Part shown: piece after piece, positions 2 to 16,867 of the stretch
Position numbering within the stretch: the first letter of the stretch is position 1
Layout of the letters: every line of letters starts with the position of its first letter
Virus record (IMG/VR): IMGVR_UViG_3300005613_000212
Span: 1 to 35,955 of that record
From: a virus
Direction: 5' to 3' (one strand)
Length of the DNA: 35,955 nucleotides
Made by a program: the position numbers and the translations under genes
Notes under the pieces: generated by a model
Seen by the model: only the letters and a program-made list of their open reading frames with translations
Database searches by the model: none
Told to the model about the DNA's origin: nothing

Positions 2-109
2 CTCACCGACGCGGAGGACGAGACGGTTTACCTCAAGGCTTGGCCTGTGGGGACGGACTACATCATCGATTGTAGCGAGACGGACGCTGTCGAGTTCACG
101 GGTGCCTAG
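2..109 (+). CDS. C-terminal end of an upstream gene, probably a head or capsid-associated protein
   Basis: An open frame enters from the left edge and stops at TAG 107-109, giving 35 residues that end in VEFTGA. The fragment alternates polar and hydrophobic residues (TVYLKAWPVGTDYIIDC), as in a beta-sandwich. Ending in a short hydrophobic tail just before a strong hairpin suggests the last gene of a highly expressed unit. In T4-type phages the major capsid protein or a head decoration protein often lies here, next to the internal-protein and neck genes, but the fragment is too short to assign. The location is inference; only the reading frame and stop are seen directly. Confidence 0.6.
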   Translation, partial: LTDAEDETVYLKAWPVGTDYIIDCSETDAVEFTGA

Positions 110-138: not shown

Positions 139-179
139 ACATCCCCGACAGGTTCTCCCGGACACTCTGTCGGGGATGT
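139..179 (+). terminator. Perfect 13-bp hairpin after the first gene, likely terminator or mRNA-end structure
   Basis: The arm at 139-151 (ACATCCCCGACAG) is exactly complementary to the arm at 167-179, with a 15-base loop between. It lies 30 bases after a stop codon and 25 bases before the next ATG. No T-tract follows the right arm, so a classical intrinsic terminator is uncertain. It could instead stabilise the 3' end of the upstream message or partly attenuate read-through. No -10/-35 or T4-late (TATAAATA) promoter is clear behind it. Confidence 0.6.
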
Positions 180-203: not shown

Positions 204-470
204 ATGGAAGACGTCAGGATGTTCATCGAGGAGAGCCTGTCGAGGGTCTTGGTCGAAGTGCTTGTCGAGGGCAAGAGTCCGACGCAGTGGTGGGATAAGC
301 TGAAGGCTGCCGACCGCAAGAAGGTTGTCGATATTCTTGGGCTGGGCAAGGGGAAGGAGAAAAGCTCCTTCTCAAAGCTCGATGACGATGAGCAGTCCGA
401 GATCACGGCGTATTTCCGTAAGTACAAGGGTGTTGTCGAGGATCTGGGCGACGACGATCCTGCTGCCTAA
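204..470 (+). CDS. Small acidic protein with capsid-targeting-like N-terminus (putative internal head protein)
   Basis: This 88-residue protein starts at ATG 204, with AAGGAG at 193-198. I do not recognise a family. The N-terminus MEDVRMFIEES is followed by VLVEVLVEG, which gives two hydrophobic-x-Glu sites (FIEE/S and LVE/G). These resemble the T4 prohead protease consensus (L/I)-x-E before a small residue. The second site closely matches VLVES in the gene at 3166. The remainder is helical with a DDDPAA end. By inference it is targeted to the procapsid core and trimmed after residue ~23. It could instead be a small scaffold or core protein. Confidence 0.7.
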   Translation: MEDVRMFIEESLSRVLVEVLVEGKSPTQWWDKLKAADRKKVVDILGLGKGKEKSSFSKLDDDEQSEITAYFRKYKGVVEDLGDDDPAA

Positions 471-482
471 CTGGAGGATAGG

Positions 483-1136
483 ATGGAATTCTACAAGAAG
501 AACCCCGAGATTCCGGGAACGATTTTTGTGCAGGGCGAGGCGATTGACGACGAGAAGGTCGTATGCGGCGAGAAGTTCAAGCCGTTTGCAGACCCGAAGA
601 CATTCCCTGGGAGACCGCCCAAGCTTGTGAAGGTTGAGGGCAAGGAACTCAACAGGGGGCAGATCGACGACGTCCAGGAGCAGGCAAAGAAGCAGGCAAA
701 CGAGCCACCGAAGCACCTGGGCGTGATCAAGTCTGCTCAGTTCGTGGTCAACAAGGACACCGGTGAAGCGAAGCTCAAGGCGGAGCCAAAGCTTCCTTCA
801 GAGGCGAAGCCGAAAAAGGTCACTGAGCCGGAGCCCAAGGAAGAGGTTGAGCTTGACGAAGAGGCCGAGACCAAGGAAGAGGTCGAGCCTGTCATCGAGG
901 AGCAGAAGGGCAAGGGCAGCAGGAAGATCTCGGAGATGTATTCCACGGAGGACATCGTCGAGGTGTTTCCTGGGATCACCGACAAGAACGCCGATCAGTT
1001 TTCGAAGAAGTTTTCGACGCTGATGGATGTGGTTCACGCGAGCAATGTCGATCTCAAGAAGATCGGTGTCCCCTCGAATTACTTCCGCAGGCTGCGCGAC
1101 AAGGCTGTGGAGATCATAGAGTCAGATGACGAATAA
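483..1136 (+). CDS. Head-region protein with acidic linker and C-terminal helix-hairpin-helix-like domain
   Basis: This 217-residue protein has GGAGG at 473-477, five bases before its ATG. Residues ~1-100 look globular. Residues ~100-145 are a Lys/Glu/Pro-rich low-complexity linker that includes EEVELDEEAE, a possible L-D-E protease site. Residues ~150-217 have the pattern of a helix-hairpin-helix repeat of the RadA/Rad51 N-terminal type: VFPGITDKNADQF, then LMDVVHASNVDLKKIGV, then a final helix. Such domains often bind DNA non-specifically. A DNA-binding protein packed in or lining the head would fit, but this is inference. The last 11 bases overlap the next gene. Confidence 0.7.
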   Translation: MEFYKKNPEIPGTIFVQGEAIDDEKVVCGEKFKPFADPKTFPGRPPKLVKVEGKELNRGQIDDVQEQAKKQANEPPKHLGVIKSAQFVVNKDTGEAKLKAEPKLPSEAKPKKVTEPEPKEEVELDEEAETKEEVEPVIEEQKGKGSRKISEMYSTEDIVEVFPGITDKNADQFSKKFSTLMDVVHASNVDLKKIGVPSNYFRRLRDKAVEIIESDDE

Positions 1137-1704
1137 TCCAATGAAGGCCACCATCGGTGACCTTGGTCGCAATGTAGACGTCTTGCGCGAGCTTCGGAAC
1201 AGTCTCGTTACCGAGCGGCGTATTCACGAGCGAGCCGAGGTTGATTCTGAGCGCTGGGGTACGTTTTCCCAGATAGCTGAATCCATTGCCTGTGCATGTA
1301 ACGAACGGGATCTTGAGGCTCTGGCATCCTCTGTGCGCGACATGAAGAACAAGTTGCGACGACCAAGCGTGCGTCGTGATCTTGAGCGTCTTGAGAGCAA
1401 GGACAAGGATGCTGACAAGGCCAAGAACCCGACCGGCGAATGCAAGTGTGCCGATTGTGGAGCTGTTGTCGACGGTTCGAAAGAGCCATGTGTTGACGGT
1501 GCTCTTTGCACAAAGTGTGCATTGAAGAAAAAGGTCATCTCCAAGAAGGAGCAGGACGCGAAGAAGGCAAAGAAGGTCGGACCTCCTGTTTCTGGTCAGG
1601 ATCAGATGCCTGGTGATGATGGAGGTGGTGGTGCTGAGACGTCTGACGAGCAACCGAGGGAGTCCATATCGCTTCGGTCTCGCGGATACCTCCGGGAGAG
1701 GTAA
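1126..1704 (+). CDS. Zinc-ribbon-like protein ending in the RxYLxE motif
   Basis: This 192-residue protein starts at ATG 1126 inside the previous gene; an alternative start is ATG 1141. Residues 10-95 are charged helix. Cysteines C108-x2-C111 and C128-x2-C131, with C106 and C122 nearby, form a likely zinc-binding knuckle. The C-terminus is LRSRGYLRER, the same LRxRxYLxE motif that starts several genes from 4291 onward, here at the last ten residues. The stop TAA at 1702 abuts the next ATG. Function is not recognised. The terminal motif may dock the protein on the same core or protease as its N-terminal counterparts, or be a remnant of cassette recombination. Confidence 0.7.
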   Translation: MTNNPMKATIGDLGRNVDVLRELRNSLVTERRIHERAEVDSERWGTFSQIAESIACACNERDLEALASSVRDMKNKLRRPSVRRDLERLESKDKDADKAKNPTGECKCADCGAVVDGSKEPCVDGALCTKCALKKKVISKKEQDAKKAKKVGPPVSGQDQMPGDDGGGGAETSDEQPRESISLRSRGYLRER

Positions 1705-2466
1705 ATGGATCTTCAAAGCTTCAAGCAGTGGGCTCGACGGTCTCTTGGCCAGGGTGAGTGTGGTGTCCGCGTTGAGCTAGATGATCGTCAGCTTGACCAG
1801 GCGCTGGATGATGCGAAAGAGTGGTTCAACGCATACATCGGGTTGTATCGAGAGGCCAATCTCTCTCTGATAGCTGATCAGGTAGAGTATGATTTGTCGG
1901 CGGTTACCCCGAGGGTCGACACGGTGACCAAGGTTTGGTTCCCGTCTCATTCATTCCAGATTGATTACGCGATGCTGTATCCGGGATTCCTTGACATCCA
2001 GGGGATTCCGTATGGCGATGCATTCATGACTGGTGTTGGGTATCCCCAGACGACGATTGTCCAGTCGTTGCAGACACAGGAGTCTATTGCGCGTGTGTTG
2101 TCTGCTGACATGGACTGGGAGATCGTTGTTGATAAGACGCAGACCCCTGCCGTGTGCAAGCTTCGTGTTATGCCCGCGCCGACTCAGAGTGGGACAGCTG
2201 TTTATTTCTACCGTGTTGATCCTCGCGACATAAAACTCAGCTACTACAAGCAGCGGGACATGTTCTTGATCCGGGAGTATGCGCTGGCGAAGGCTAAGTA
2301 CATGCTGGGTCGTATACGCGGTAAATACACTGGAGGACTTCCGGCTGCCGGTGGGGATAGATCGCTTGATGGTGAGTCGCTGATTTCGGAGTCCCGTGAT
2401 GACATCATGCGGCTAGAAGAGAAGATCATGAGCTACGACGGGCCAGTGATGCCTGTCGTGGGATGA
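1705..2466 (+). CDS. Putative neck / head-tail connector protein (T4 gp13-like)
   Basis: This 253-residue protein directly follows the previous stop and has GGGAGAGG upstream. The N-terminal half has helices with regularly spaced Trp and Tyr (LDQALDDAKEWFNAYIG). The middle is beta-rich. The region from residue ~189 (REYALAKAKYMLGRIRGKY), followed by a Gly-rich turn, then DGESLISES and a last Glu-rich helix, is the layout I associate with neck proteins of large myoviruses. In T4 gp13 sits below the portal and helps close the DNA-filled head. Its place between head and tail genes agrees. The assignment rests on pattern recognition, not a search. Confidence 0.55.
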   Translation: MDLQSFKQWARRSLGQGECGVRVELDDRQLDQALDDAKEWFNAYIGLYREANLSLIADQVEYDLSAVTPRVDTVTKVWFPSHSFQIDYAMLYPGFLDIQGIPYGDAFMTGVGYPQTTIVQSLQTQESIARVLSADMDWEIVVDKTQTPAVCKLRVMPAPTQSGTAVYFYRVDPRDIKLSYYKQRDMFLIREYALAKAKYMLGRIRGKYTGGLPAAGGDRSLDGESLISESRDDIMRLEEKIMSYDGPVMPVVG

Positions 2467-2909
2467 CATTCGGTGGGTTCATGAGAGACAACGAAGACAT
2501 GACAAAGGCCGATAGCATTCGAGAGTGGCAGCTGTGGATGCATCCGTATCCAACATTGATCAAGACAAGAGGAAGACGTATTCAGCCGGGGTTGCGTCCC
2601 GATGTTCGGGAGCTTGATGACACTGAGCTTGTCATGCTTTCCGACTTGTTCGAGGGGCGCAGGAGGAGGACTCCGCCTCAGCTGAAGAGGTGCGTTCGGG
2701 CTGTGGCCAAGAAGCACGGTGGAGACGTCAGCAAGGCGTTTGCTATCTGTACTGCTCAGTTGCAGAAGGGTGGCTACCTAAAGGTTGGGACACAGGAGCC
2801 AACGAAGATGGGCAAGACAGCCGGTCGCTCGAAGGCGGCTGATAAAGATCACAAGGACAAGGTCAGCGAATACGAGCAGCTGTTGGCGCTGGCTCGCAAA
2901 GGAGATTGA
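2463..2909 (+). CDS. Small basic head-region protein with paired-cysteine helical motif
   Basis: This 148-residue protein overlaps the preceding stop (ATG 2463); ATG 2481 and ATG 2499 are in-frame alternatives. Residues 74-102 (RCVRAVAKK, AFAICTAQL, with C77 and C96) form a two-helix motif with one cysteine per helix, spaced like small domains common in phage head proteins. The C-terminal third is Lys-rich and probably flexible. No hydrophobic-x-Glu targeting site is evident at the N-terminus, unlike its neighbours. Function is not known. It may be structural, placed as it is between the neck candidate and the cassette array. Confidence 0.65.
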   Translation: MTFGGFMRDNEDMTKADSIREWQLWMHPYPTLIKTRGRRIQPGLRPDVRELDDTELVMLSDLFEGRRRRTPPQLKRCVRAVAKKHGGDVSKAFAICTAQLQKGGYLKVGTQEPTKMGKTAGRSKAADKDHKDKVSEYEQLLALARKGD

Positions 2910-2911
2910 AG

Positions 2912-3163
2912 ATGGACGTCAGGCAAATCAACAGTGGGCTCTCTTCGTTGATCGGTTCTCTCACAGAGGGTCGTGAAAAGTTCATAATCGTCAAGGACGG
3001 CAGCCGGGGAACCAAGTTCTGGAACGGTTCTGGGTGGTCTTCTGAGTATCCGGATGCGTTGCAGTACGATGGCATCCGGGCAGCGAAGAAGGAGATCAAG
3101 AGTCGCAAGATTTCCGGGGCCGAGGCGATCACGATCGACGAGTATGACTCAGGGGAGTGGTAG
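2912..3163 (+). CDS. Small protein with capsid-targeting-like N-terminus (putative internal head protein)
   Basis: ATG 2912 is preferred over the in-frame TTG 2906 because GGAG at 2901-2904 is spaced correctly and TTG 2906 overlaps the upstream TGA. The 83-residue product begins MDVRQINSGLSSLIGSLTEG. Cleavage after L-T-E at ~residue 19 would leave a Gly-starting fragment of ~64 residues. The mature part is rich in Lys, Gly and aromatics and ends with acidic DEYDSGEW. It resembles a small beta-alpha domain of a type I cannot name. It is read as one of the internal-protein cassettes by analogy with its neighbours. Confidence 0.65.
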   Translation: MDVRQINSGLSSLIGSLTEGREKFIIVKDGSRGTKFWNGSGWSSEYPDALQYDGIRAAKKEIKSRKISGAEAITIDEYDSGEW

Positions 3164-3165
3164 AC

Positions 3166-3810
3166 ATGAGGCTTTCAGCGATCAATGGGTATCTTGGGCA
3201 GCTGGTCGAGGACGTGCTCGTCGAGAGCGCAGTCGCTGTTGGCCAGACGGTTGAGACTCCATCCCTGCGAATTCATCGGTATGCATCGGCGCTCAAGGTG
3301 ACGGATCTCACGAACGCCGGGAAGCGCGGGAAAACCGTTGACGAGTTTGCCCTCTACAACCTGGACTACGTGAAGAACCAAGACGTCCAAAAGTTGGTTG
3401 AGAAGTTCTCGGCCCAGCTCAGGACGGTCAAGAATTACCGGTCTGCGCTTGTGATGGCCAAGGGGCTTGTGGCGGCTGCCGAGCGGATGGTTGGTTCCAG
3501 CTTCGGCATCCCTGGGATCGAGACCCACCAGTACAAGGGTGTCCGGGTTCGTCCGGCTGGGATGAAGGAGATCAAGATCGACACTCCGTATCTCACCGGA
3601 TATGCGGATGGCCAGCGCTTCTCTGTCCAGGACAAGAAGGACAGGGGGAACGAGCCGACCATCATGCACAAGGGAAACCGTAGTGCGAGCCAGTTCTACA
3701 AGTGGCTGGCGAAGAACGAGAAGAAGATCAACGCGATGGACTTCAGGGATCTCCAAATGGCGCTTCAGAAGGCGAAGATCAATTTCCATTACTTCTGCGC
3801 GATGGACTAG
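3166..3810 (+). CDS. Putative internal head protein with 20-residue propeptide ending in VLVE/S
   Basis: The start at ATG 3166 is chosen over GTG 3157 because AGGGGAG at 3151-3157 is eight bases upstream. The 214-residue product opens with MRLSAINGYLGQLVEDVLVES, an amphipathic segment ending in L-V-E/S, very like VLVEG in the gene at 204. The mature region (~190 residues) is basic and helix-rich. A glycine-rich central section (~110-150) is followed by TIMHKGNRSASQFYKWLAK and a terminal aromatic segment. No enzyme motif is recognised. The inferred role is a protein packaged in the capsid and cleaved at maturation. Confidence 0.65.
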   Translation: MRLSAINGYLGQLVEDVLVESAVAVGQTVETPSLRIHRYASALKVTDLTNAGKRGKTVDEFALYNLDYVKNQDVQKLVEKFSAQLRTVKNYRSALVMAKGLVAAAERMVGSSFGIPGIETHQYKGVRVRPAGMKEIKIDTPYLTGYADGQRFSVQDKKDRGNEPTIMHKGNRSASQFYKWLAKNEKKINAMDFRDLQMALQKAKINFHYFCAMD

Positions 3811-3819
3811 GAGGACGTC

Positions 3820-4527
3820 ATGGGGATCATTGTTGAACGGCAGAAGGCAGTGGGATTTCCCGGGTGGCATGACGAGGGGCCGCCGACTCGGCTTGGTGCT
3901 TTCAAGCTCAGCACGAATGCTCTGAAGCACTTCAAGGAGATGGGGATCGAGAACCCGGAAGACTCAATGTTCCCCTCGATGCGGAAAGTCGTGCACGATA
4001 TTCCCAGGTCCGATCTGCCGAAGATCTGGGGAGCGGATAATATGGCCGATGCTCAAGACGTCATTGCCAGGAACCCGAAGCTGGCGTTCCGGGAGTGGAT
4101 GAAGAACATCGGCAAGGTGTCTCCGAAGCTGGCGAGGGGGATTCGCAAGTATCCCGATCAGGTTCCAGTTTGGTTCTACATGACCGTCGTTGCTGTCTCT
4201 GGGCGCGACATGGCGGACATTATTCTGAAGCAGTACCTGTCTGCGAAGCCGTCTCAGGCGTGGAGAGGGAAGATGAAGAAGGAGGATGCCATGGAGAGCA
4301 ATCTCAGGGACAGGTCGTATTTGACCGAAGGTCAGATGAAGCTTCGCAGGGTGAAGCGTTCGCTCGACACGATTGGGCAATCGCTGAAAGATGCGGAGAG
4401 CGCATACAAGAAGCTCTCTTCTGACGAGCAGCGGTTTGCTCCTCAAAAGGACAACCTCAAGGCCGATCTGGGTCGGATCTTGACGGCGGCCAAGGTGGCG
4501 ATGCGTTCTCTCGGCGAGGACGTCTGA
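3820..4527 (+). CDS. Two-part protein: unknown domain fused to an LRDRSYLTE cassette
   Basis: This 235-residue frame has AGGAGG at 3809-3814. Residues 1-157 form an unrecognised mostly helical domain with a hydrophobic stretch PVWFYMTVVAVSG. Residues 158-235 begin MESNLRDRSYLTEG and are homologous along their length to the separate 77-residue protein at 4540. Shared features are R-x-Y-L-x-E, then a helix with LDxIGQxLKDA, then a C-terminal hydrophobic/basic helix. A strong Shine-Dalgarno sequence directly before residue 158 suggests the second half is also made alone. Either a stop codon between two cassettes has been lost, or the fusion is processed after L-T-E by the prohead protease. Function is unknown. 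Confidence 0.65.
   Translation: MGIIVERQKAVGFPGWHDEGPPTRLGAFKLSTNALKHFKEMGIENPEDSMFPSMRKVVHDIPRSDLPKIWGADNMADAQDVIARNPKLAFREWMKNIGKVSPKLARGIRKYPDQVPVWFYMTVVAVSGRDMADIILKQYLSAKPSQAWRGKMKKEDAMESNLRDRSYLTEGQMKLRRVKRSLDTIGQSLKDAESAYKKLSSDEQRFAPQKDNLKADLGRILTAAKVAMRSLGEDV
4291..4527 (+). CDS. Nested in-frame start giving a 78-residue LRDRSYLTE protein
   Basis: ATG 4291 is preceded by AAGGAGG at 4279-4285, five bases away, which is as good as any gene start in this window. The product begins MESNLRDRSYLTEG and aligns with the next gene (4540), whose N-terminus is MGSGLRRRSYLFEEAM. The paralogue beginning precisely here makes an internal initiation plausible. The alternative is that the Shine-Dalgarno is a relic of a separate gene now read through from 3820. 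The product would be a short, basic, helical internal head protein after removal of about 13 residues. Confidence 0.5.
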   Translation: MESNLRDRSYLTEGQMKLRRVKRSLDTIGQSLKDAESAYKKLSSDEQRFAPQKDNLKADLGRILTAAKVAMRSLGEDV

Positions 4528-4539
4528 AGGGAGCGTGTC

Positions 4540-4773
4540 ATGGGAAGCGGTCTCCGGAGAAGGTCGTACCTGTTCGAAGAGGCAATGGACTTCCGCAAGG
4601 CAAAGTCTGAGCTTGATAGGATTGGCCAAGATCTGAAGGATGCCAAGGTTCAGCTTGACAAGTTGTCCAGGGGAGATGCTGGCAAGAGCACTGACGAATT
4701 CGTGGATGCGATAAAGCGGATTTGGGCTGCGGCTTTGTATGCGGCGCGTGCTGTTGGCACAAGGATCAGGTAG
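4540..4773 (+). CDS. LRRRSYLFE cassette protein, paralogue of the 4291 product
   Basis: This 77-residue protein has AAGGGAG at 4527-4533. The N-terminus MGSGLRRRSYLFEE carries the targeting-like motif, with cleavage expected after L-F-E. The rest is a single long charged helix (KAKSELDRIGQDLKDAKVQL), then a short linker and a C-terminal amphipathic helix, IKRIWAAALYAARAVGTRIR. Its similarity to residues 158-235 of the previous frame indicates a tandem duplication. The C-terminal basic/hydrophobic helix could associate with DNA or membranes; this is speculative. Confidence 0.65.
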   Translation: MGSGLRRRSYLFEEAMDFRKAKSELDRIGQDLKDAKVQLDKLSRGDAGKSTDEFVDAIKRIWAAALYAARAVGTRIR

Positions 4774-4775
4774 GC

Positions 4776-5363
4776 ATGGTTCACTGGTGGTATGAGGATG
4801 AGAATGATCTTGATGCAGACGGAATGGATGCTGCTACCAGGCGTCGTCTCAAGGTAGGGAAGACGATCCCGAAAGGGAGAAAGCGTCCACGTTCTCCTCT
4901 GCGAAACCGAGCCCCCTATTCCCTGATGAATATCCAGCACGACAAGGGTCACGCCGAGTCACTCTCTGGTGTTGTTGATTGGCTTGCCGAGGCTGTCCGC
5001 TTTGCGACCCCTGGCAAGGAGAAGCGTGGCAAGCATGATCCCGTTGCCTATGTGCTGAGGACGTTCTTTCATTCGACCCCTGAGTTCGAGGCGTCGATGG
5101 AAGAGAAGGTTGCGCGCCGGAATGGCTGGACCGTGCGAGGTGCTTGGCCGACGACTGGCAAGCACATCTTCGACTGGGAGTTTGAGGTTTGGGGTGAGCG
5201 CAATGGCGGAGTGGTCGTGAAGTTCACCATGTGGGGCCAGAAGGGGATGATCGATGGTCACACGTTCACAACGACGGTTGCCACTGTGGGAAAGCTGGCT
5301 CCGAAGTTCGTGAGAAAGTATTTTATTCCCATGAAGGCTGAGGCCAAGGAGCAAGCAAAATGA
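4776..5363 (+). CDS. Unrecognised basic protein with internal WLAE/A site
   Basis: ATG 4776 is chosen because it lies two bases after the previous stop; a longer frame from 4722 would overlap that gene and is unlikely. The product is 195 residues. A basic first section (RRRLKVGKT, PKGRKRPRSPLRNR) leads to SLSGVVDWLAEAVRF at residues 62-76, where L-A-E/A (70-72) fits the prohead protease pattern. In-frame ATG 4926 would place this site ~20 residues from the N-terminus but lacks a good ribosome site. The mature domain (~120 residues) has beta-like strands with Trp and Gly. The last codons (EAKEQAK) are made from the repeated leader sequence that precedes the next gene. Confidence 0.6.
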   Translation: MVHWWYEDENDLDADGMDAATRRRLKVGKTIPKGRKRPRSPLRNRAPYSLMNIQHDKGHAESLSGVVDWLAEAVRFATPGKEKRGKHDPVAYVLRTFFHSTPEFEASMEEKVARRNGWTVRGAWPTTGKHIFDWEFEVWGERNGGVVVKFTMWGQKGMIDGHTFTTTVATVGKLAPKFVRKYFIPMKAEAKEQAK

Positions 5364-5713
5364 CTCTGAGAAGACGCGGGTATCTTTCGGAGGGTGGAGC
5401 GCGGAAGAGATTCCGGGATTACAACTGGAGAGAAGTTGCGAAGTTCATTCCCAGGGCGAAGCTTGTGGAGAAGTTGCGCGACGAGGTCATGATCTTTGTC
5501 CCGGTCGGCAACAGTCGATATATCATTTCTGAAAATGGTGGTGAGCTGAATATCAGCAAGGTTGTTCCCATTGGTGAGTCAGTTCCCTATTGGTCAAATG
5601 CGCATCCTGGCGGTGCAGTTGGTCCAGAGACGCTGGCGTACAGGATTGATGCGGCCATAAAGGGAAACAGGATTGATTACGATCTGGACCTTGACAATCC
5701 GTCTTTTGACTGA
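5360..5713 (+). CDS. LRRRGYLSE cassette protein
   Basis: This 117-residue protein overlaps the previous stop in ATGA. It begins MTLRRRGYLSEGGARKRF; cleavage after L-S-E/G would leave ~106 residues. The body is beta-rich (DEVMIFVPVGNSRYIISENG) and ends in an acidic DYDLDLDNPSFD tail. The family is unknown. AAGGAG at 5346-5351 belongs to a leader repeated before two other cassettes. Confidence 0.65.
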   Translation: MTLRRRGYLSEGGARKRFRDYNWREVAKFIPRAKLVEKLRDEVMIFVPVGNSRYIISENGGELNISKVVPIGESVPYWSNAHPGGAVGPETLAYRIDAAIKGNRIDYDLDLDNPSFD

Positions 5714-5731
5714 GGCCAAGGAGTAAACAAG

Positions 5732-6055
5732 ATGACCTTGAGACGTCGTAGTTACTTGATTGAGTCTGGTTTAGACGATGATCTGTTTGATGGGATGTCC
5801 AAGTCTCAGCTTTCTCGAATCATTTTGAAACGGGCGGCAAAGCAGACAAAGGTACGCAGTGTCAAGTCGTGGCTTCTCGGTGATGAGCAGGGGAAGTGGG
5901 ACAAGAGAGCGAGAGAGCTGATTCGCAGGATGGAAACTCCTGAGATGAGGAAGAAGATAGAGCAGCAGGGTTTGACTGGTGACCAGGTGATAGAGCAGAT
6001 GGCGGTGTACCTTGCTTTGATGGCTCTGGAGGCTTCAAAGAAAAAATCTCGGTAG
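5732..6055 (+). CDS. LRRRSYLIE cassette protein
   Basis: This 107-residue protein starts MTLRRRSYLIESGLDDD; L-I-E/S is the predicted cut. The mature part is all-helical and basic: SKSQLSRIILKRAAKQTK, then a helix with RARELIRRMETPEMRKK, then QVIEQMAVYLALMALEASKKK. The first 25 bases of the gene are almost identical to those of the 6074 gene while the bodies are unrelated. This is what cassette swapping behind a conserved start would produce. No function is recognised. Confidence 0.65.
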   Translation: MTLRRRSYLIESGLDDDLFDGMSKSQLSRIILKRAAKQTKVRSVKSWLLGDEQGKWDKRARELIRRMETPEMRKKIEQQGLTGDQVIEQMAVYLALMALEASKKKSR

Positions 6056-6073
6056 CCGGAGGGAGCAAGCAAA

Positions 6074-6355
6074 ATGACTCTGAGACGTCGTAGTTATTTG
6101 GCCGAGGGCAGGGAACTCAACGCGAAGAACGTGATGGCTGTGCTCAAGAAGTCTGGCATCAGGGCGAAGGTCTATGGTGACGGTTCTGACGTTCGGATCG
6201 AGTTCTCTGATGAGAAGGAGATGGAGAAAGCCAGGAAGCGTCTTGGTTCTGGTTGGGGTGGTCACCATGACCGGAAGCGTGGGGTGTGGGTTTGGCGGTA
6301 TTCTCCATCTGACTCGTTCGACTACAATACTCCGTACTATGCCGGTCATAGGTAG
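6074..6355 (+). CDS. LRRRSYLAE cassette protein
   Basis: This 93-residue protein starts MTLRRRSYLAEGRELN; cleavage after L-A-E/G is predicted, leaving ~82 residues. The mature section (VMAVLKKSGIRAKVYGDGSDVRIEFSD, then a Lys/Arg helix) resembles a small ferredoxin-like alpha-beta fold, followed by a Trp/Tyr-rich end. It shares a 24-base identical stretch over its ribosome site and start with the 5360 gene (6062-6085 versus 5348-5371). It belongs to the putative internal-protein array. Confidence 0.65.
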   Translation: MTLRRRSYLAEGRELNAKNVMAVLKKSGIRAKVYGDGSDVRIEFSDEKEMEKARKRLGSGWGGHHDRKRGVWVWRYSPSDSFDYNTPYYAGHR

Positions 6356-6366
6356 GGGAGGGGTCA

Positions 6367-6846
6367 TTGTTCAGTCTCACGGAAAAGGTTGCGCTGCTTG
6401 AGTTTGTCGTTGATGAGATGTCGGATGGTGCTGATCTGCTTGACGAGGCATCGAAGCTGACCCCCTATCAGAAGGCGCAGCGGAACAGACGTCAGACGGT
6501 GGCGACGCACACTCCTCGTCCGTCAAAGCAGAGCACGTTTTACAAGCATGCGGTGCGTGCCATTTTCGGGAAGCTCCGAAAGGGTGGCGAGAGTTTCACT
6601 GGGGCGGCCAAGGGTGGTCAGCGGATTGCTCAGTGGATGTTGAAGAAGCACGGGTATGCATCTGGCCAGGAGGGTGGGAATTTCTCACTGACTGCCAAGG
6701 GTCACAAGCGAAACAAGAAGCACACGAGTGAGCCCAAGTCTGTTCTGAAGAAGAAGGCGAGGGCATACGATTACATAATGGGAATCCAGCGGCGTCAGCA
6801 GAAACGCCAACAGCAGGTACAACGAAAGGCGGCGAGCGCCGGATAG
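6367..6846 (+). CDS. Highly basic putative internal head protein with DLLDE/A site
   Basis: This 159-residue product starts at TTG 6367, with a GGGGAGGGG ribosome site just upstream; no ATG fits. The N-terminus MFSLTEKVALLEFVVDEM is acidic and amphipathic and leads to GADLLDEASK, where L-D-E/A at ~residue 27 matches the protease consensus. The mature ~132 residues are extremely basic (many KK, RR, RRQQKRQQQ), as expected for a protein condensed with DNA. A central FYKHAVRAIFGKLRKGG, then RIAQWMLKKHGYASGQ, suggests a compact helical domain. No enzyme family is recognised. Confidence 0.65.
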   Translation: MFSLTEKVALLEFVVDEMSDGADLLDEASKLTPYQKAQRNRRQTVATHTPRPSKQSTFYKHAVRAIFGKLRKGGESFTGAAKGGQRIAQWMLKKHGYASGQEGGNFSLTAKGHKRNKKHTSEPKSVLKKKARAYDYIMGIQRRQQKRQQQVQRKAASAG

Positions 6847-6857
6847 GGAGGACTCGG

Positions 6858-8141
6858 ATGAAGACTGACAAACTTGGCACCAAGTGGAACTGGCAGGTTT
6901 TCGAGCGCGGAAACGATGTCGTGTATGGATACCATGATGCCCACAGGGCATACCGGATCGCCAAGGATGATGACGGAAAGCACTGGCGTGCTGACGTCCT
7001 TGGTATGCTTGGTCACATCTGGGAAGCGCTGACTTCCAAGAAGTACATATCTCCTAAGCAGGCTGCCAAGGAGATTGTCAGTTTTCACGCGAAGTGGGAG
7101 CGGGATCAGCGAGGTCGCCGCATGGCCAAGGATCTGAACAAGATGGGCGGCGGTCGGTATGGCTACGGCGAAGACGTCGAGCTGGATGAGGCGAGTGTCG
7201 GCATGATTCAGGGGATTCCTATATCCACGGTATCGATTGGGCCTGCGACGACCAATGCGGAAATAGTCAGGGCGATCAAGGGGAGACTCAAGAAGAGGAA
7301 CGCAGTTCGTCTTGGTCGATGGATCATGACTCCTCGTGGTGATGTTTTCAAGCTTCCGGAGAAGTACCGTGGGGGTGGCTTGCCTCCGAATCCGGAGGAG
7401 TTTGATGTTGCCATCTACGGGGTGGAGGCTTTTTTGAAAGCCTGGCAGAAGGATTGGAGCAATGAAGACGTCGAGCTGGACGAGGGCAAAGAGAAATTTG
7501 ACCCTTCCCTCAAGGGAAAGAAAGTCGTTGCCAATGGTTTCCGGCTGAAAGCCAAGAAGGGTGAGAAATACACGCTGACTGGCAAGATGCGTTTTGTGCA
7601 GGCTGGTCGGGGTTATGAATATGAGATGAAAGGTCGCAGTGGTGAGCCCATCTGGTTGGATGGTGCTGGCTTTGAGCTTGTTGAGTCGATTGCTGGTGAT
7701 GTGCGCGAGATGCGCGACGAGCTTATCGGGGAGGCCCGTGGTCGTCGAATGGGAGTGCCGCCCGATGACGACGAGGTTCCTCCGCGTCTGAGAGGGCTCC
7801 GTGCTCGCAAGAAGGGGACCGGGCCGAGGGGCAAGGCTGGAGCGTGCATTGGTCTCAAGAGCGAGGACAAGATCCGAGACTCCAAGGTGACGAGTGTCCA
7901 GGGGCAGATTGTTGCTGCTCTGAAGTGGGGTTTTGACTTTATGCCCAGCAAGTCGAACAAACACTGGTTGTACTTCCACTACAAGGGGAAGGGCGGCCAG
8001 AACGAGGCGTTGGATCGCGCAGAGGATCTCCTGGGTAAGGTCGATGTGGAGACGTCTGGTGTGGCTGCGATTGGCGCGTCTGGGAAGAAGGGCAACGTCG
8101 AGCTTGAGGTGGATGTCAGTAAGCTGAAGCTCAAGGGGTGA
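6858..8141 (+). CDS. Putative polyprotein of internal head proteins (three predicted protease sites)
   Basis: This 427-residue protein has a good ribosome site (GGGAGG). Two almost identical linkers, EDVELDEA at ~105-112 and EDVELDEG at ~203-210, and a third site DELIGEA at ~287-293, fit cleavage after (L/I)-x-E before Ala/Gly. Cutting would give four pieces: 1-111, 112-209, 210-292 and 293-427. Piece 1 has a Trp/Tyr-rich start and helices. Piece 2 contains helices around NAEIVRAIKGRLKKRNAVRL. Piece 3 is a small beta-barrel-like domain (KGEKYTLTGKMRFVQ). Piece 4 is basic then alpha-beta. Function of the pieces is unknown. Confidence 0.65.
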   Translation: MKTDKLGTKWNWQVFERGNDVVYGYHDAHRAYRIAKDDDGKHWRADVLGMLGHIWEALTSKKYISPKQAAKEIVSFHAKWERDQRGRRMAKDLNKMGGGRYGYGEDVELDEASVGMIQGIPISTVSIGPATTNAEIVRAIKGRLKKRNAVRLGRWIMTPRGDVFKLPEKYRGGGLPPNPEEFDVAIYGVEAFLKAWQKDWSNEDVELDEGKEKFDPSLKGKKVVANGFRLKAKKGEKYTLTGKMRFVQAGRGYEYEMKGRSGEPIWLDGAGFELVESIAGDVREMRDELIGEARGRRMGVPPDDDEVPPRLRGLRARKKGTGPRGKAGACIGLKSEDKIRDSKVTSVQGQIVAALKWGFDFMPSKSNKHWLYFHYKGKGGQNEALDRAEDLLGKVDVETSGVAAIGASGKKGNVELEVDVSKLKLKG

Positions 8142-8145
8142 TCGG

Positions 8146-8766
8146 ATGACGAATCTCAGGGAGACGGTGTCATTTCTCGGCGAGGCGGTTGAGTCCCTCG
8201 CTGAGATGGACGATTTCAAGGCTCAGTATGCGAAGTCGCAGCATGCCAAGCTGAGCAGGGGCAAGGAAATCGACGCCAAGCGGTCGAGCAGTTTGGCTGC
8301 TGGGCGTTTGGCGAAGGTGTTTCAGAACTCCGGATGGAAGGCTGATCCACTATCGACCGATGGCTGGGGGATAACCCCTGTGTCGCTGGACATTGATGGG
8401 GTGAGGATTCCTGTATCCATCGGTGTTCAGGAGTTGCCGAAGCAGTCCAGTTTTCATCTTCAATTTCAGCAGCCGATGTCCGGGTTGATGTCTGACAAGC
8501 GAGACGGTCGCTGGCGTGAGCTTTCGAAGCGCATGATGAAGGCTCTGGAGTACGCTGCCAGTGCCAAGAAGCTGAAGGAGTTCGGAAAGGTCAACGTCGA
8601 GTTGCTCAAGGGGGCATGGCCGCAGGTTTGGGTCTACCCGTCATCCGAAGAGGACTTCCAGCACCTGCTCCCTGTGTTTCCGATGTTTGTCAGTCGTGCT
8701 GCCAATGCAGTTGCCAGAACCTTTGCGAACAGCAGCGAGCTGTTCATCGATGGCGAGGGCGACTGA
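8146..8766 (+). CDS. Putative internal head protein with FLGE/A N-terminal site
   Basis: This 206-residue protein starts at ATG 8146, four bases after the previous stop. MTNLRETVSFLGEAVESLAEMDD contains L-G-E/A at 11-13 and L-A-E at 18-20. The mature region includes a basic helix (AKLSRGKEIDAKR), a beta section (VSLDIDGVRIPVSIGVQEL), a helix MMKALEYAASAKKLKEF, and a C-terminal helix with PMFVSRAANAVARTF. No family is recognised. It ends in TGATG overlap with the head-closure candidate. Confidence 0.6.
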   Translation: MTNLRETVSFLGEAVESLAEMDDFKAQYAKSQHAKLSRGKEIDAKRSSSLAAGRLAKVFQNSGWKADPLSTDGWGITPVSLDIDGVRIPVSIGVQELPKQSSFHLQFQQPMSGLMSDKRDGRWRELSKRMMKALEYAASAKKLKEFGKVNVELLKGAWPQVWVYPSSEEDFQHLLPVFPMFVSRAANAVARTFANSSELFIDGEGD

Positions 8767-9248
8767 TGGGGAAGCTGTTCTGCGATGCTGATCGGTGTTT
8801 GTTTGACTCTGTGGCTCAGGAAGTGAACGAGCTTGCTGGGACCACAGGGTACATCTTTCAGCTTGAGCAGGACGAGAGTGTTCGAGATCCGTTGTACGAC
8901 GAGCCGAGTGACATGGCGTACAAGCGGAACAGTGAGGGTGTCGAGGGCATCGAGTGTCCGATGCTCGTGAAAGATCCCGAGCGGTCACCGACGTCTGGAG
9001 AGGAGGGCTTCCGTCTTCAGAAAAACACTCGGGTCTATGTCGCAGTGAAGGACTTGACCAACCGAGATCTCAGGCGACCGAGGGTTGGGGACATCTTCAA
9101 GATCTGGAATCAGTATTACGATGTGACGGATTCGAGTGTGGGTGATGCCTACGTGAGTGATTCCGGCGAGATTCCAGTGGTGTACGAGGTCAATGTGGTG
9201 CGCAGAACGCAGTCTCCGCCAGAGGGGTTGTGGCTGAGGAATCAATGA
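8766..9248 (+). CDS. Possible head-closure / neck adaptor protein
   Basis: ATG 8766 overlaps the previous TGA; a longer frame from 8616 overlaps the upstream gene and is not credible. The 160-residue product is beta-rich. The run RVGDIFKIWNQYYDVTDSS, followed by a C-terminal strand VVYEVNVVRR, is the layout of small head-closure proteins (SPP1 gp16 type), where a groove residue set leads into YDV. A preceding section with DPLYDEPSD also fits known phage neck proteins. Position after the cassette array and before tail-completion genes agrees. Pattern-based, moderate at best. Confidence 0.45.
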   Translation: MGKLFCDADRCLFDSVAQEVNELAGTTGYIFQLEQDESVRDPLYDEPSDMAYKRNSEGVEGIECPMLVKDPERSPTSGEEGFRLQKNTRVYVAVKDLTNRDLRRPRVGDIFKIWNQYYDVTDSSVGDAYVSDSGEIPVVYEVNVVRRTQSPPEGLWLRNQ

Positions 9249-9712
9249 GTTTACGCGGTAAAGCGGGGAACCTACTGGAGGAAATCTTCGGCGAGCGCAA
9301 GGATACTACGCCGAGGGGTCGCCAGGATGGCCCACGTCGCCCTGAGCGCTCAAAGAAGCCGGTGGGCAGTGGATACCCTGGGTCAGATGGACAGATGACT
9401 GGCAGGGGCCTGAGCGGCGAGAAGAAGCCCAAGGAGATTCCCGGTGCTGACAAGCCGCTGGCAAAGAAGGATGTCATCACGGAGTTCGACAGCATGGACG
9501 ACTGGATGCTGTCGATGCTCCTGGTCGCTGTTATGCATGCCAATCCCGGGATGGACCAGGACGAGGCGTTGATCGAGGGGAAGAGGTGGGCAAAGGAGCT
9601 TTACCTCCCCAGGACAAATTACCTTTGGAGGAAACAGCTCGCCAGGATTGCGAGGCATGGCATTCGTGCTGAGGCGTCCAAGATTCGTCGCGAGATGTTC
9701 AAGATGATTTAG
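9245..9712 (+). CDS. Unrecognised protein with basic disordered N-half; possible internal protein
   Basis: ATG 9245 overlaps the previous TGA (ATGA); the frame itself is open from 9230. The 155-residue product begins MSLRGKAGNLLEEIFGERK, loosely like the cassette N-termini (L-L-E/E and F-G-E/R). Residues 20-75 are Gly/Pro/Lys-rich and probably disordered. Residues ~80-155 are helical (DDWMLSMLLVAVMHANPGMD, then QLARIARHGIRAEASKIRRE). The targeting reading is weaker than in its neighbours. Confidence 0.55.
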   Translation: MSLRGKAGNLLEEIFGERKDTTPRGRQDGPRRPERSKKPVGSGYPGSDGQMTGRGLSGEKKPKEIPGADKPLAKKDVITEFDSMDDWMLSMLLVAVMHANPGMDQDEALIEGKRWAKELYLPRTNYLWRKQLARIARHGIRAEASKIRREMFKMI

Positions 9713-9721
9713 GAGGATTCG

Positions 9722-10351
9722 ATGGGTCTCACGAGGAGTAAGGAATTTTTGAAAGATGCCGTTGAAGGTCTTCTCGGCGAGGAGATGTTCTCCATCACTG
9801 GTGGTGGTCTGGTTCCTTTGCAGAACAAGATCCTGATCCAGCCGAACGTCCAGTACCACATGGGAGCGTCGTCGAGCCCCAGCAAGATCTTCGTGACCAA
9901 GGTGACAGGGGACGCGATCTATTATCTCAACTACCCGTACTACAAGCAGCAAGAGCGCAGGATGCAGTTGAGCATTGCGCAGGACATGATTTCGAGGGGC
10001 GTGAGCACGTTTCTCAAAAGCGGGTATGTCAAGTATCCGTGGGGAAAGAAGCTTGCCAAGAGATACAACAGCCTGATGGCTGGCAAGAAGGTCAAGCCTG
10101 AGAAGCTGTCTGACTTTGACAGGATCAGGGTCTTTGTTTCTCCCGGTGAGGGGTACGAGAAACAGGATCTCTGGCGTGATGCTGAGCAGTATGGAAGCGT
10201 TGCCAGACGTCGTATTGACGGGAAAACGGACGGGTTCCACTGGGCCAAGGACGATTACTCGATGCTCTATGTCATCGAGACGATCAAGAAAGATCTCGCC
10301 GCGATCAAGAAGGACAAGCGGTTCAAGATCGAGAAGGTCGAAGCGGAGTAG
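9722..10351 (+). CDS. Putative internal head protein with GLLGE/E site
   Basis: This 209-residue protein has AGGAGG eight bases before ATG 9722. N-terminal MGLTRSKEFLKDAVEGLLGEE is an amphipathic helix ending in L-G-E, like the propeptides upstream. The mature part is mixed: beta (KILIQPNVQYHMGAS, KIFVTKVTGDAIYYL), an aromatic-rich YPYYKQQERR, helices with many Lys/Arg, and a basic C-terminal helix. I do not recognise the fold. It is the last member of the continuous cassette array. Confidence 0.55.
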   Translation: MGLTRSKEFLKDAVEGLLGEEMFSITGGGLVPLQNKILIQPNVQYHMGASSSPSKIFVTKVTGDAIYYLNYPYYKQQERRMQLSIAQDMISRGVSTFLKSGYVKYPWGKKLAKRYNSLMAGKKVKPEKLSDFDRIRVFVSPGEGYEKQDLWRDAEQYGSVARRRIDGKTDGFHWAKDDYSMLYVIETIKKDLAAIKKDKRFKIEKVEAE

Positions 10352-16660: not shown

Positions 16661-16867
16661 ATGTCGCTACGAAAGAGAAGCTACCTGGGTGAGATGACCA
16701 CGTCTGGTTCTGTTCCGGCTGTGGTCAAACCGTTTGCGCTGGTGAAGAAGGCGTTCCCAGCGGTGCTGTCAGGGTTGGACGGTATCCTGGCAAGGCGTAA
16801 AAAACGCAAGAAGCGGTTATTGAAGCGCTTTTCCAGGATGGGTCCACCTCTGCCCCCCATACTCTAA
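16661..16867 (+). CDS. Isolated LRKRSYLGE cassette protein in the tail operon
   Basis: This 68-residue protein begins MSLRKRSYLGEM, the same targeting-like motif as genes at 4291-6074, six or more kilobases away. A hydrophobic middle (VVKPFALVKKAFPAVLSGLDGIL) leads to ARRKKRKKRLLKRFSRM and a Pro-rich end. Cleavage after L-G-E/M is predicted. The charge and hydrophobic helix suggest a DNA- or membrane-binding peptide packaged in the head, but it sits between tube and chaperone genes. That location is odd and could mark a mobile cassette. Confidence 0.6.
   Translation: MSLRKRSYLGEMTTSGSVPAVVKPFALVKKAFPAVLSGLDGILARRKKRKKRLLKRFSRMGPPLPPIL

Follow-up and report, generated by a model that had tools for sequence, protein, structure and literature searches.

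The linear virus fragment IMGVR_UViG_3300005613_000212 of IMG/VR, analysed here as its entire record of 35,955 bases (the window), carries an array of small genes that very probably forms an expanded version of the internal-protein system of phage T4, in which labelled precursors would be built into the prohead, cut there and carried to the next host. Two N-terminal labels recur in the array: a short label, MxLRxRxYLxE, of 11 residues (S-label) and a longer one, approximately MxLxxVNxLLxxxVxxLxE, of about 20 residues (L-label). Genes are named below by their start coordinates, and the sign "|" in sequences marks the predicted cut site, after Glu.

By sequence comparison we document the label, its portability, a protease and capsid cut site in related phages, and a chain site that also lies in gp22-type scaffolds of other T4-type phages; from these we infer docking, cleavage, packaging, injection and host action. 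In the proposed mechanism, the gene products would be precursor proteins that become part of the prohead of a T4-type myophage, each docked to the prohead core by its S-label or L-label. A gp21-type S77 protease would cut after Glu, as in the capsid protein and scaffold, and free the body inside the head; some cargo would be made as chains, cut at EDVELDE|[AG] or at internal S-labels. The freed proteins would stay in the head, and the phage-specific ones would probably accompany the DNA into the host and act on the cell, like the T4 internal proteins and Alt.

The short label is lineage-specific and conserved as protein

Megablast of the window against named phages gave no near match. Family scans identified sheath, tube, baseplate wedge and Ad2-type adaptor genes, and related contigs were found through sheath and capsid scans of IMG/VR. 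The informative relatives are G001 (77.9 kilobases (kb), sheath 71% identical), G003 (142 kb, 68%), G002, G004, G005 and G006, with L053, L054, L058, L059 and L060 also informative. An Ad2-based scan yielded no relatives, and there is no host clue because a search of bacterial genomes with the capsid protein found none.

The motif search proposed in the initial annotation of the window gave counts far above expectation. A six-frame search of the window for strict LRxRxY[LI]xE found seven copies, where shuffled residues gave 0.008 on average (maximum 1 in 500); 12 related contigs contain 39 copies (null 0; reversed motif 0). Six window copies stand at the gene starts 4291, 4540, 5360, 5732, 6074 and 16661, all of them named in that annotation, and the seventh is the C-terminus of gene 1126–1704 (1672–1698). 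Across 42 copies, L1, R2, R4 and E9 are invariant, Y is present in 38, and 40 carry L or I at position 7. Matches of three S-label DNA patterns to 2.9 million viral contigs were confined to this lineage plus one contig, L073, and the pattern read backwards gave 0 matches against 12 forward. The L073 match was rejected as a 28-codon chance open reading frame (ORF) unrelated to the lineage.

That these are merely short arginine-rich N-termini with common LxE triplets has next to no probability: the S-label counts refute it, although chance may still account for the site of 9245. Single triplets do occur elsewhere, [LI]xE[AGS] lying within the first 30 residues of 36/407 other genes (9%), but array genes carry it in 38/113 cases (34%; p=8e-10). 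At residues 31–60 the two groups are equal, and with the S-labelled genes removed the array still has the triplet in 28/95 (p=1e-6). A lone (L/I)xE near an N-terminus is therefore weak, and the array genes as a class are convincing.

Leu, Tyr and Glu codons differ among label copies while the residues stay fixed, so conservation acts on the protein sequence. Arginine codons partly share one frozen spelling, AGACGTCGY, a pattern that points to copies duplicated from one common label. This frozen spelling of LRRR, together with the ribosome-site sequence shared upstream of three window copies, would also suit a DNA or RNA element (a signal that starts translation, or a recombination site) whose coding of LRxRxYL is coincidental, and cassette shuffling would use such homology. 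We consider such an element very improbable, as codons vary under fixed residues, AGACGTCGY is found at other places on both strands, protein C-termini retain the motif, and L-labelled bodies do without it. AGACGTCGY was also considered as regulatory DNA and dropped, since it occurs outside labels too.

Two further label occurrences were observed in relatives. In G004 (reversed), a copy at 39909, LRHRFYLTE, lacks a close upstream ATG or GTG and possibly starts at its own Leu codon. G002 (reversed) has a second, distal array (32595–37506, L035) of 9–10 nearly consecutive S-labelled genes, including ADP-ribosyltransferase (ART)-like proteins, far downstream of the sheath gene.

A gp21-type protease and a matching capsid site lie upstream in relatives

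The gene order in relatives is portal, a protein of about 300 residues, an acidic scaffold-like protein of about 400 residues rich in LxE sites, S77 protease, major capsid protein, a protein of about 187 residues, and the array. The initial annotation had advised looking upstream for a gp21-like protease and an LxE-bearing scaffold; relatives have the protease and this scaffold-like protein there. The protease family PF03420 is matched in G005 (E 1e-21) and G003 (E 5e-14), with weak, split matches in G001, where the gene carries a large insert; phrog_207, head maturation protease, is matched in four relatives (E 1e-28 to 1e-45). The protease genes G001:29165–31927 (L022) and L059:7120–9813 have large in-frame insertions, possibly inteins, and the portal and terminase ORFs of relatives are unusually long.

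Because the first 109 bases of the window encode the end of the ~187-residue protein, synteny puts both the protease gene and the capsid gene immediately beyond its left edge. The window translation closes with IIDCSETDAVEFTGA before the stop codon, and the same protein closes with IIDSSETDKVTFTP in L060; G003 and G005 were also compared. Since the record is cut just after the major capsid gene, downstream of the protease position, the missing protease is uninformative.

The capsid protein of the relatives belongs to the gp23 family (phrog_138, E 8e-61), with 2440 phage records matching, many of them T4-type. LxE|[AS] stands at the T4-equivalent cut place in 9/9 relatives, and several of these sites are preceded by [LMI]KR, as in LKRRFLTE|A and LKRKVLSE|S; a capsid site such as LKRRFLTE|A resembles the S-label. 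Control sites from the T4 record are SFLTE|A in gp23, MKTYQEFIAE|A in IPII and IPIII, STITE|A in IPI and MAKINELLRE|S in gp24. The FIxE/A ending that the initial annotation had ascribed to T4 internal proteins I–III accordingly holds for IPII and IPIII, whereas IPI has STITE|A after 19 residues. The T4 capsid targeting sequence (CTS) and the L/I-x-E cut rule of gp21 are described in PMC9026906. The S-label has such an ending, with Glu in 42/42 copies and L or I at position −3 in 40/42, and recognition by gp21 is predicted.

The label might instead direct proteins to a destination other than the prohead, such as the membrane, tail or phage replication compartment, which we judge improbable. It is arginine-rich and amphipathic, and 16661 lies between the tail-tube and later tail genes, but most window labels fall in the block between the capsid and sheath genes, their P4 aromatic residue, P3 Leu/Ile and P1 Glu match the T4 rule as well as the site in the capsid protein itself, and no signal-peptide-like hydrophobic run is visible in any of them.

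Labels move between bodies

Homologous bodies carry either label, and others occur both labelled and unlabelled. The L-label is found in window genes 2912, 3166, 8146 and 9722 and also in relatives. Family FAM26 is S-labelled in G003 and G006 and L-labelled in G005, with the Glu aligned. The 3166 family is L-labelled in four phages and S-labelled in G004, where a 670-residue protein with RLRGRSYLSE|A aligns to 3166 from around the label end (E 4e-7). The ART-like body of G002 and G003 aligns with viral relatives that lack the S-label, and these matches begin only at residue 12, directly behind the label; a ParB-like body matches unlabelled mycobacteriophage proteins from residue 13; and homology of a zincin-like body starts at residue 16. 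In these alignments, the boundary between label and body coincides with the homology boundary.

The label core LRxRxY also lies at or near the C-terminus of G001_35227, G003_42991, G005_9006, L058_9127, L059_13268, L060_9001 and the window protein ending at 1672–1698, a zinc-ribbon-like protein encoded just before the adaptor gene, and it is internal in fused ORFs (window 3820–4527, G001_38463 and G003_46196). Core and cut can therefore be separated. T4 has a similar division within its CTS: positions 4 and 7 act in targeting, positions 8 and 10 in processing (PMC9026906). These comparisons support an N-terminus that behaves as a portable, removable prohead label. The xINELL of the L-label resembles the T4 gp24 vertex-protein propeptide MAKINELLRE|S, possibly reflecting a common origin of the longer label.

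Genes of the array

The features of the window, with strand in brackets, are as follows.

2–109 (+): C-terminal end of the ~187-residue protein whose gene immediately follows that of the major capsid protein in relatives
139–179 (+): strong terminator-like hairpin (fold z −3.85; self-inverted match) separating the capsid-gene block from the array
204–470 (+): conserved small protein with N-terminal propeptide, site VLVE|G (LAE|SKS in relatives) by alignment; fused to a chain precursor in L060
1126–1704 (+): CxxC zinc-ribbon-like protein with label core LRSRGYLRE at its C-terminus (1672–1698); LRxRx[YH] is C-terminal in 7/7 homologues
1705–2466 (+): head-tail adaptor Ad2-like, context gene (phrog_211, E 8e-8)
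2912–3163 (+): L-labelled gene, MDVRQINSGLSSLIGSLTE|G
3166–3810 (+): L-labelled gene, MRLSAINGYLGQLVEDVLVE|S; body S-labelled in G004 (G004_40317 residues 14–126 against 3166 residues 19–132, E 4e-7)
3820–4527 (+): precursor-like ORF with internal S-label at 4303–4329; possible separate gene 4291–4527
4540–4773 (+): S-labelled gene, MGSGLRRRSYLFE|E, paralogue of the 4291 body
4776–5363 (+): two-module protein with site WLAE|A at residue 72, between a conserved N-module and the body; LxE kept in 4/5 aligned homologues
5360–5713 (+): S-labelled orphan, MTLRRRGYLSE|G
5732–6055 (+): S-labelled orphan, MTLRRRSYLIE|S
6074–6355 (+): S-labelled orphan, MTLRRRSYLAE|G
6367–6846 (+): very basic conserved protein (mature isoelectric point (pI) 11.6), propeptide ending LLDE|A before SKLTPYQKAQ by site alignment; 56–72% identity in 5 relatives
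6858–8141 (+): chain precursor with EDVELDE|A (after 7190), EDVELDE|G (after 7484) and RDELIGE|A (after 7733)
8146–8766 (+): L-labelled gene ending its label in VESLAE|M; single homologue, site not kept
9245–9712 (+): conserved protein with weak, poorly conserved site NLLE|E
9722–10351 (+): L-labelled gene ending its label in EGLLGE|E; body 57% identical to G001_43606
16661–16867 (+): tiny, basic and conserved S-labelled protein, MSLRKRSYLGE|M, encoded after the tail-tube genes; homologues in 5 relatives

The hairpin is probably a terminator or processing site. The label of 16661 is intact in four relatives and degenerate in G003, and the N-module of 4776 is fused to other S-labelled bodies in G001_38463 and G003_46196.

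Several details of the initial annotation are refined by these data. Its gene start at 4291 does carry a label, and a standalone gene begins at the same point in L058, but in the window this ATG lies in frame inside ORF 3820–4527. Among its other (L/I)xE sites, those of 204, 2912, 4776 and 6367 are well kept, as is that of 3166 in 4/5 homologues and that of 9722 in both of its homologues; the site of 9245 is poor and the single homologue of 8146 is without it. Bodies are mostly basic, as stated there, predicted mature pI exceeding 9 in 11/14 array proteins (204, 2912 and 5360 are acidic to neutral). The 4291 and 4540 bodies are paralogues (56% over 43 residues, E 4e-12), so not all bodies are unrelated to one another.

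Scans of the window array proteins against PHROGs, Pfam, NCBIfam and PADLOC returned nothing significant, in line with the earlier statement that none has a recognised family. The predicted structure of 3166 has a mean predicted local distance difference test (pLDDT) score of 79 over the whole model and a good body, with the label below 50; its comparison with the PDB and viral models gave no fold match above noise. The best match, a KTSC-domain protein (VIA Z 4.7), fell under the tool's own caution level and was rejected.

Chain precursors

The initial annotation did not include the chain at 6858–8141, whose predicted cuts fall at residues 111 and 209 (EDVELDE|[AG]) and 292 (RDELIGE|A). Sites of the EDVELDE type recur 8–10 times in ORFs of G001 (1661 residues; L021:17530 onward) and G003 (1060 residues; L027:8492–11671) and three times in G006 (1092 residues); further chains are at L135, L147, L134 and L150. 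Chains of a similar kind also occur in an isolated T4-type phage, the Kyanoviridae phage Melnitz. Chains have 3 to 11 segments, linked by EDVELDE|[AG] or EEVELDE|[AG], with beads of roughly 50–170 residues, none of which could be placed in a biochemical family. G003 and G006 have homologous beads in a different order, and one bead, rich in lysine and glycine, recurs.

A search across viral contigs placed the EDVELDE-type site in 76 distinct ORFs, of which 21 have at least two. In the T4-type contigs L101, L120, L125 and L138, EDVELDE|A lies in gp22 homologues between gp21 and gp23; L134, L150 and L167 have entire chains in the gp20–gp21 interval, the place of gp67 and gp68 in T4; chains of T4-type phages outside this lineage are often located there, between the portal and protease genes, and some of them start like the T4 CTS, with MKTFKELVSE or MKLYEKLKKSITE. 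These positions and starts make EDVELDE|A a likely prohead-protease site. A literature text search for phage polyproteins cut by a prohead protease found no such chains described among the papers it listed, which is weak evidence of novelty.

More tentatively, and with somewhat less than even confidence, we suggest a general addressing code for virion cargo in T4-type phages. Interchangeable N-terminal, internal and C-terminal labels would combine with EDVELDE|[AG] linkers, and the prohead protease would act as a polyprotein processor: from a few precursors in each head it would free at least a dozen shuffled domains of effector or core type, both in this lineage and widely among other T4-type phages.

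Predicted cargo activities: effectors or core proteins

Labelled bodies of relatives carry signatures of three kinds. Two are ART-like (G002_35182 and G003_22335), with conserved YR...GxGVYLTW...EG and matches to PF18760 at E 0.023 and 0.062, below cut-off. Zincin-like HExxH bodies are G006_26334 (HEIGH) and G001_11441 (HEMVH, the motif being kept in a megaphage homologue). The ParB/Srx-like body G003_102550 matches phrog_3147 (E 9e-8) and has mycobacteriophage homologues. A PF17963 search was uninformative. ART, zincin and ParB/Srx classes are hallmarks of polyvalent proteins (PMC5512222), and signatures of these kinds would suit injected effectors.

The labelled proteins could alternatively be prohead-core or scaffold components, like T4 gp67, gp68 and IPIII, that serve head assembly and are mostly destroyed or left behind at maturation rather than injected. 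Six of the genes (204, 3166, 4776, 6367, 9245 and 16661) have homologues in three or more relatives, kept in order and sequence; chains of other T4-type phages occupy the gp67/gp68 position; and many mature bodies are very basic, suiting DNA condensation. Against this stand the phage-specific labelled sets, almost wholly different between phages (in the window 5360, 5732 and 6074 and, with few homologues, 2912 and 4291/4540), and the ART-like, zincin and ParB-like signatures, unlikely for scaffold. On balance, we regard the core or scaffold role as a general explanation as rather unlikely. As at least six of the listed genes are conserved, the "arsenal" of the initial annotation fits mainly the phage-specific ones.

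Several observations weigh against a labelled, head-delivered effector system. The six conserved genes may encode core or DNA-condensing proteins rather than effectors. Enzyme assignments draw on motifs and sub-threshold matches and are accordingly putative; the model of the ART-like cargo was unusable (pLDDT 36), and PDB sequence and profile searches for the ART-, zincin- and ParB-like cargo gave nothing useful. In place of A, G or S, the P1' residue is often K, M, E, I or L. The protease and capsid gene are placed by synteny, from contigs 61–71% identical in sheath. Finally, AGACGTCG(C/T) is over-used in the LRRR codons, and part of the label similarity may reflect recent duplication. An expanded internal-protein system nevertheless remains our strongly preferred reading of the array.

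Comparison with known systems

The closest parallel is T4 IPI–IPIII and the variable internal-protein (Ip) loci of T-even phages, in which a short propeptide ending in (L/I)xE likewise precedes otherwise unrelated small, mostly basic, variable proteins. The lineage shares the gp21-type protease and gp23-type capsid, and in both systems the propeptides come in two lengths, 10 and 19 residues in T4 and 11 and about 20 here. At least ten Ips sharing only a leader are reported from T-even phages, and injected Ip1–3 block distinct Type IV restriction enzymes (PMC12373910). LRxRxYLxE is not homologous to the T4 CTS, MKTYQEFIAE, sharing only the P4 aromatic residue, P3 L/I and P1 E, and the array is therefore not a member of the T4 family but would only work like one. 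Here there are more labelled genes per genome than the three of T4, two interchangeable labels on homologous bodies, label cores that are also internal or at conserved C-termini, and multi-bead chain precursors. It is these features (the number of labelled genes, the swappable labels, the C-terminal and internal copies and the chains) that are new; processing, packaging and injection are predicted.

T4 Alt, a head-packaged, injected ADP-ribosyltransferase processed by gp21, is the prototype of a head-delivered ART. The S-labelled ART-like proteins of G002 and G003 recall it, but they are single-domain, about 140 residues when mature, and match ART-PolyVal (PF18760) only below threshold, and none was found in the window. 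With polyvalent proteins (PMC5512222) the system shares overlapping cargo domains (ART, zincin metallopeptidase and ParB/Srx-like), many domains in one chain and a proposed delivery with DNA. It differs in having mostly separate labelled genes, or chains in which the dividing element is a prohead-protease-type site, not an embedded peptidase.

Multiple LxE sites are also a feature of T4 gp67, gp68 and gp22, and the likeness extends to the chains between gp20 and gp21 in other phages and to EDVELDE|A within gp22 homologues; the window chain 6858, in contrast, is downstream of the capsid gene, and no relation of beads to gp67 or gp68 was detected. In giant phages of the phiKZ/SPN3US type, too, a gp21-related protease cuts many head proteins after Glu, and these are ejected. 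Their propeptides are not known to share a short label, and their capsid lineage differs.

Virion-delivered effectors are hard to find because their bodies lack recognisable families. A strict lineage-specific label turns the task into a pattern search in which each labelled gene is a predicted head-delivered protein. The T4 CTS has already been used to load foreign proteins into heads, and the S-label offers an 11-residue handle for loading them into T4-type heads. If the EDVELDE chains are processed as predicted, a phage capsid protease would do the job of RNA-virus polyprotein proteases, and many long "hypothetical" proteins of T4-type phages would be explained.

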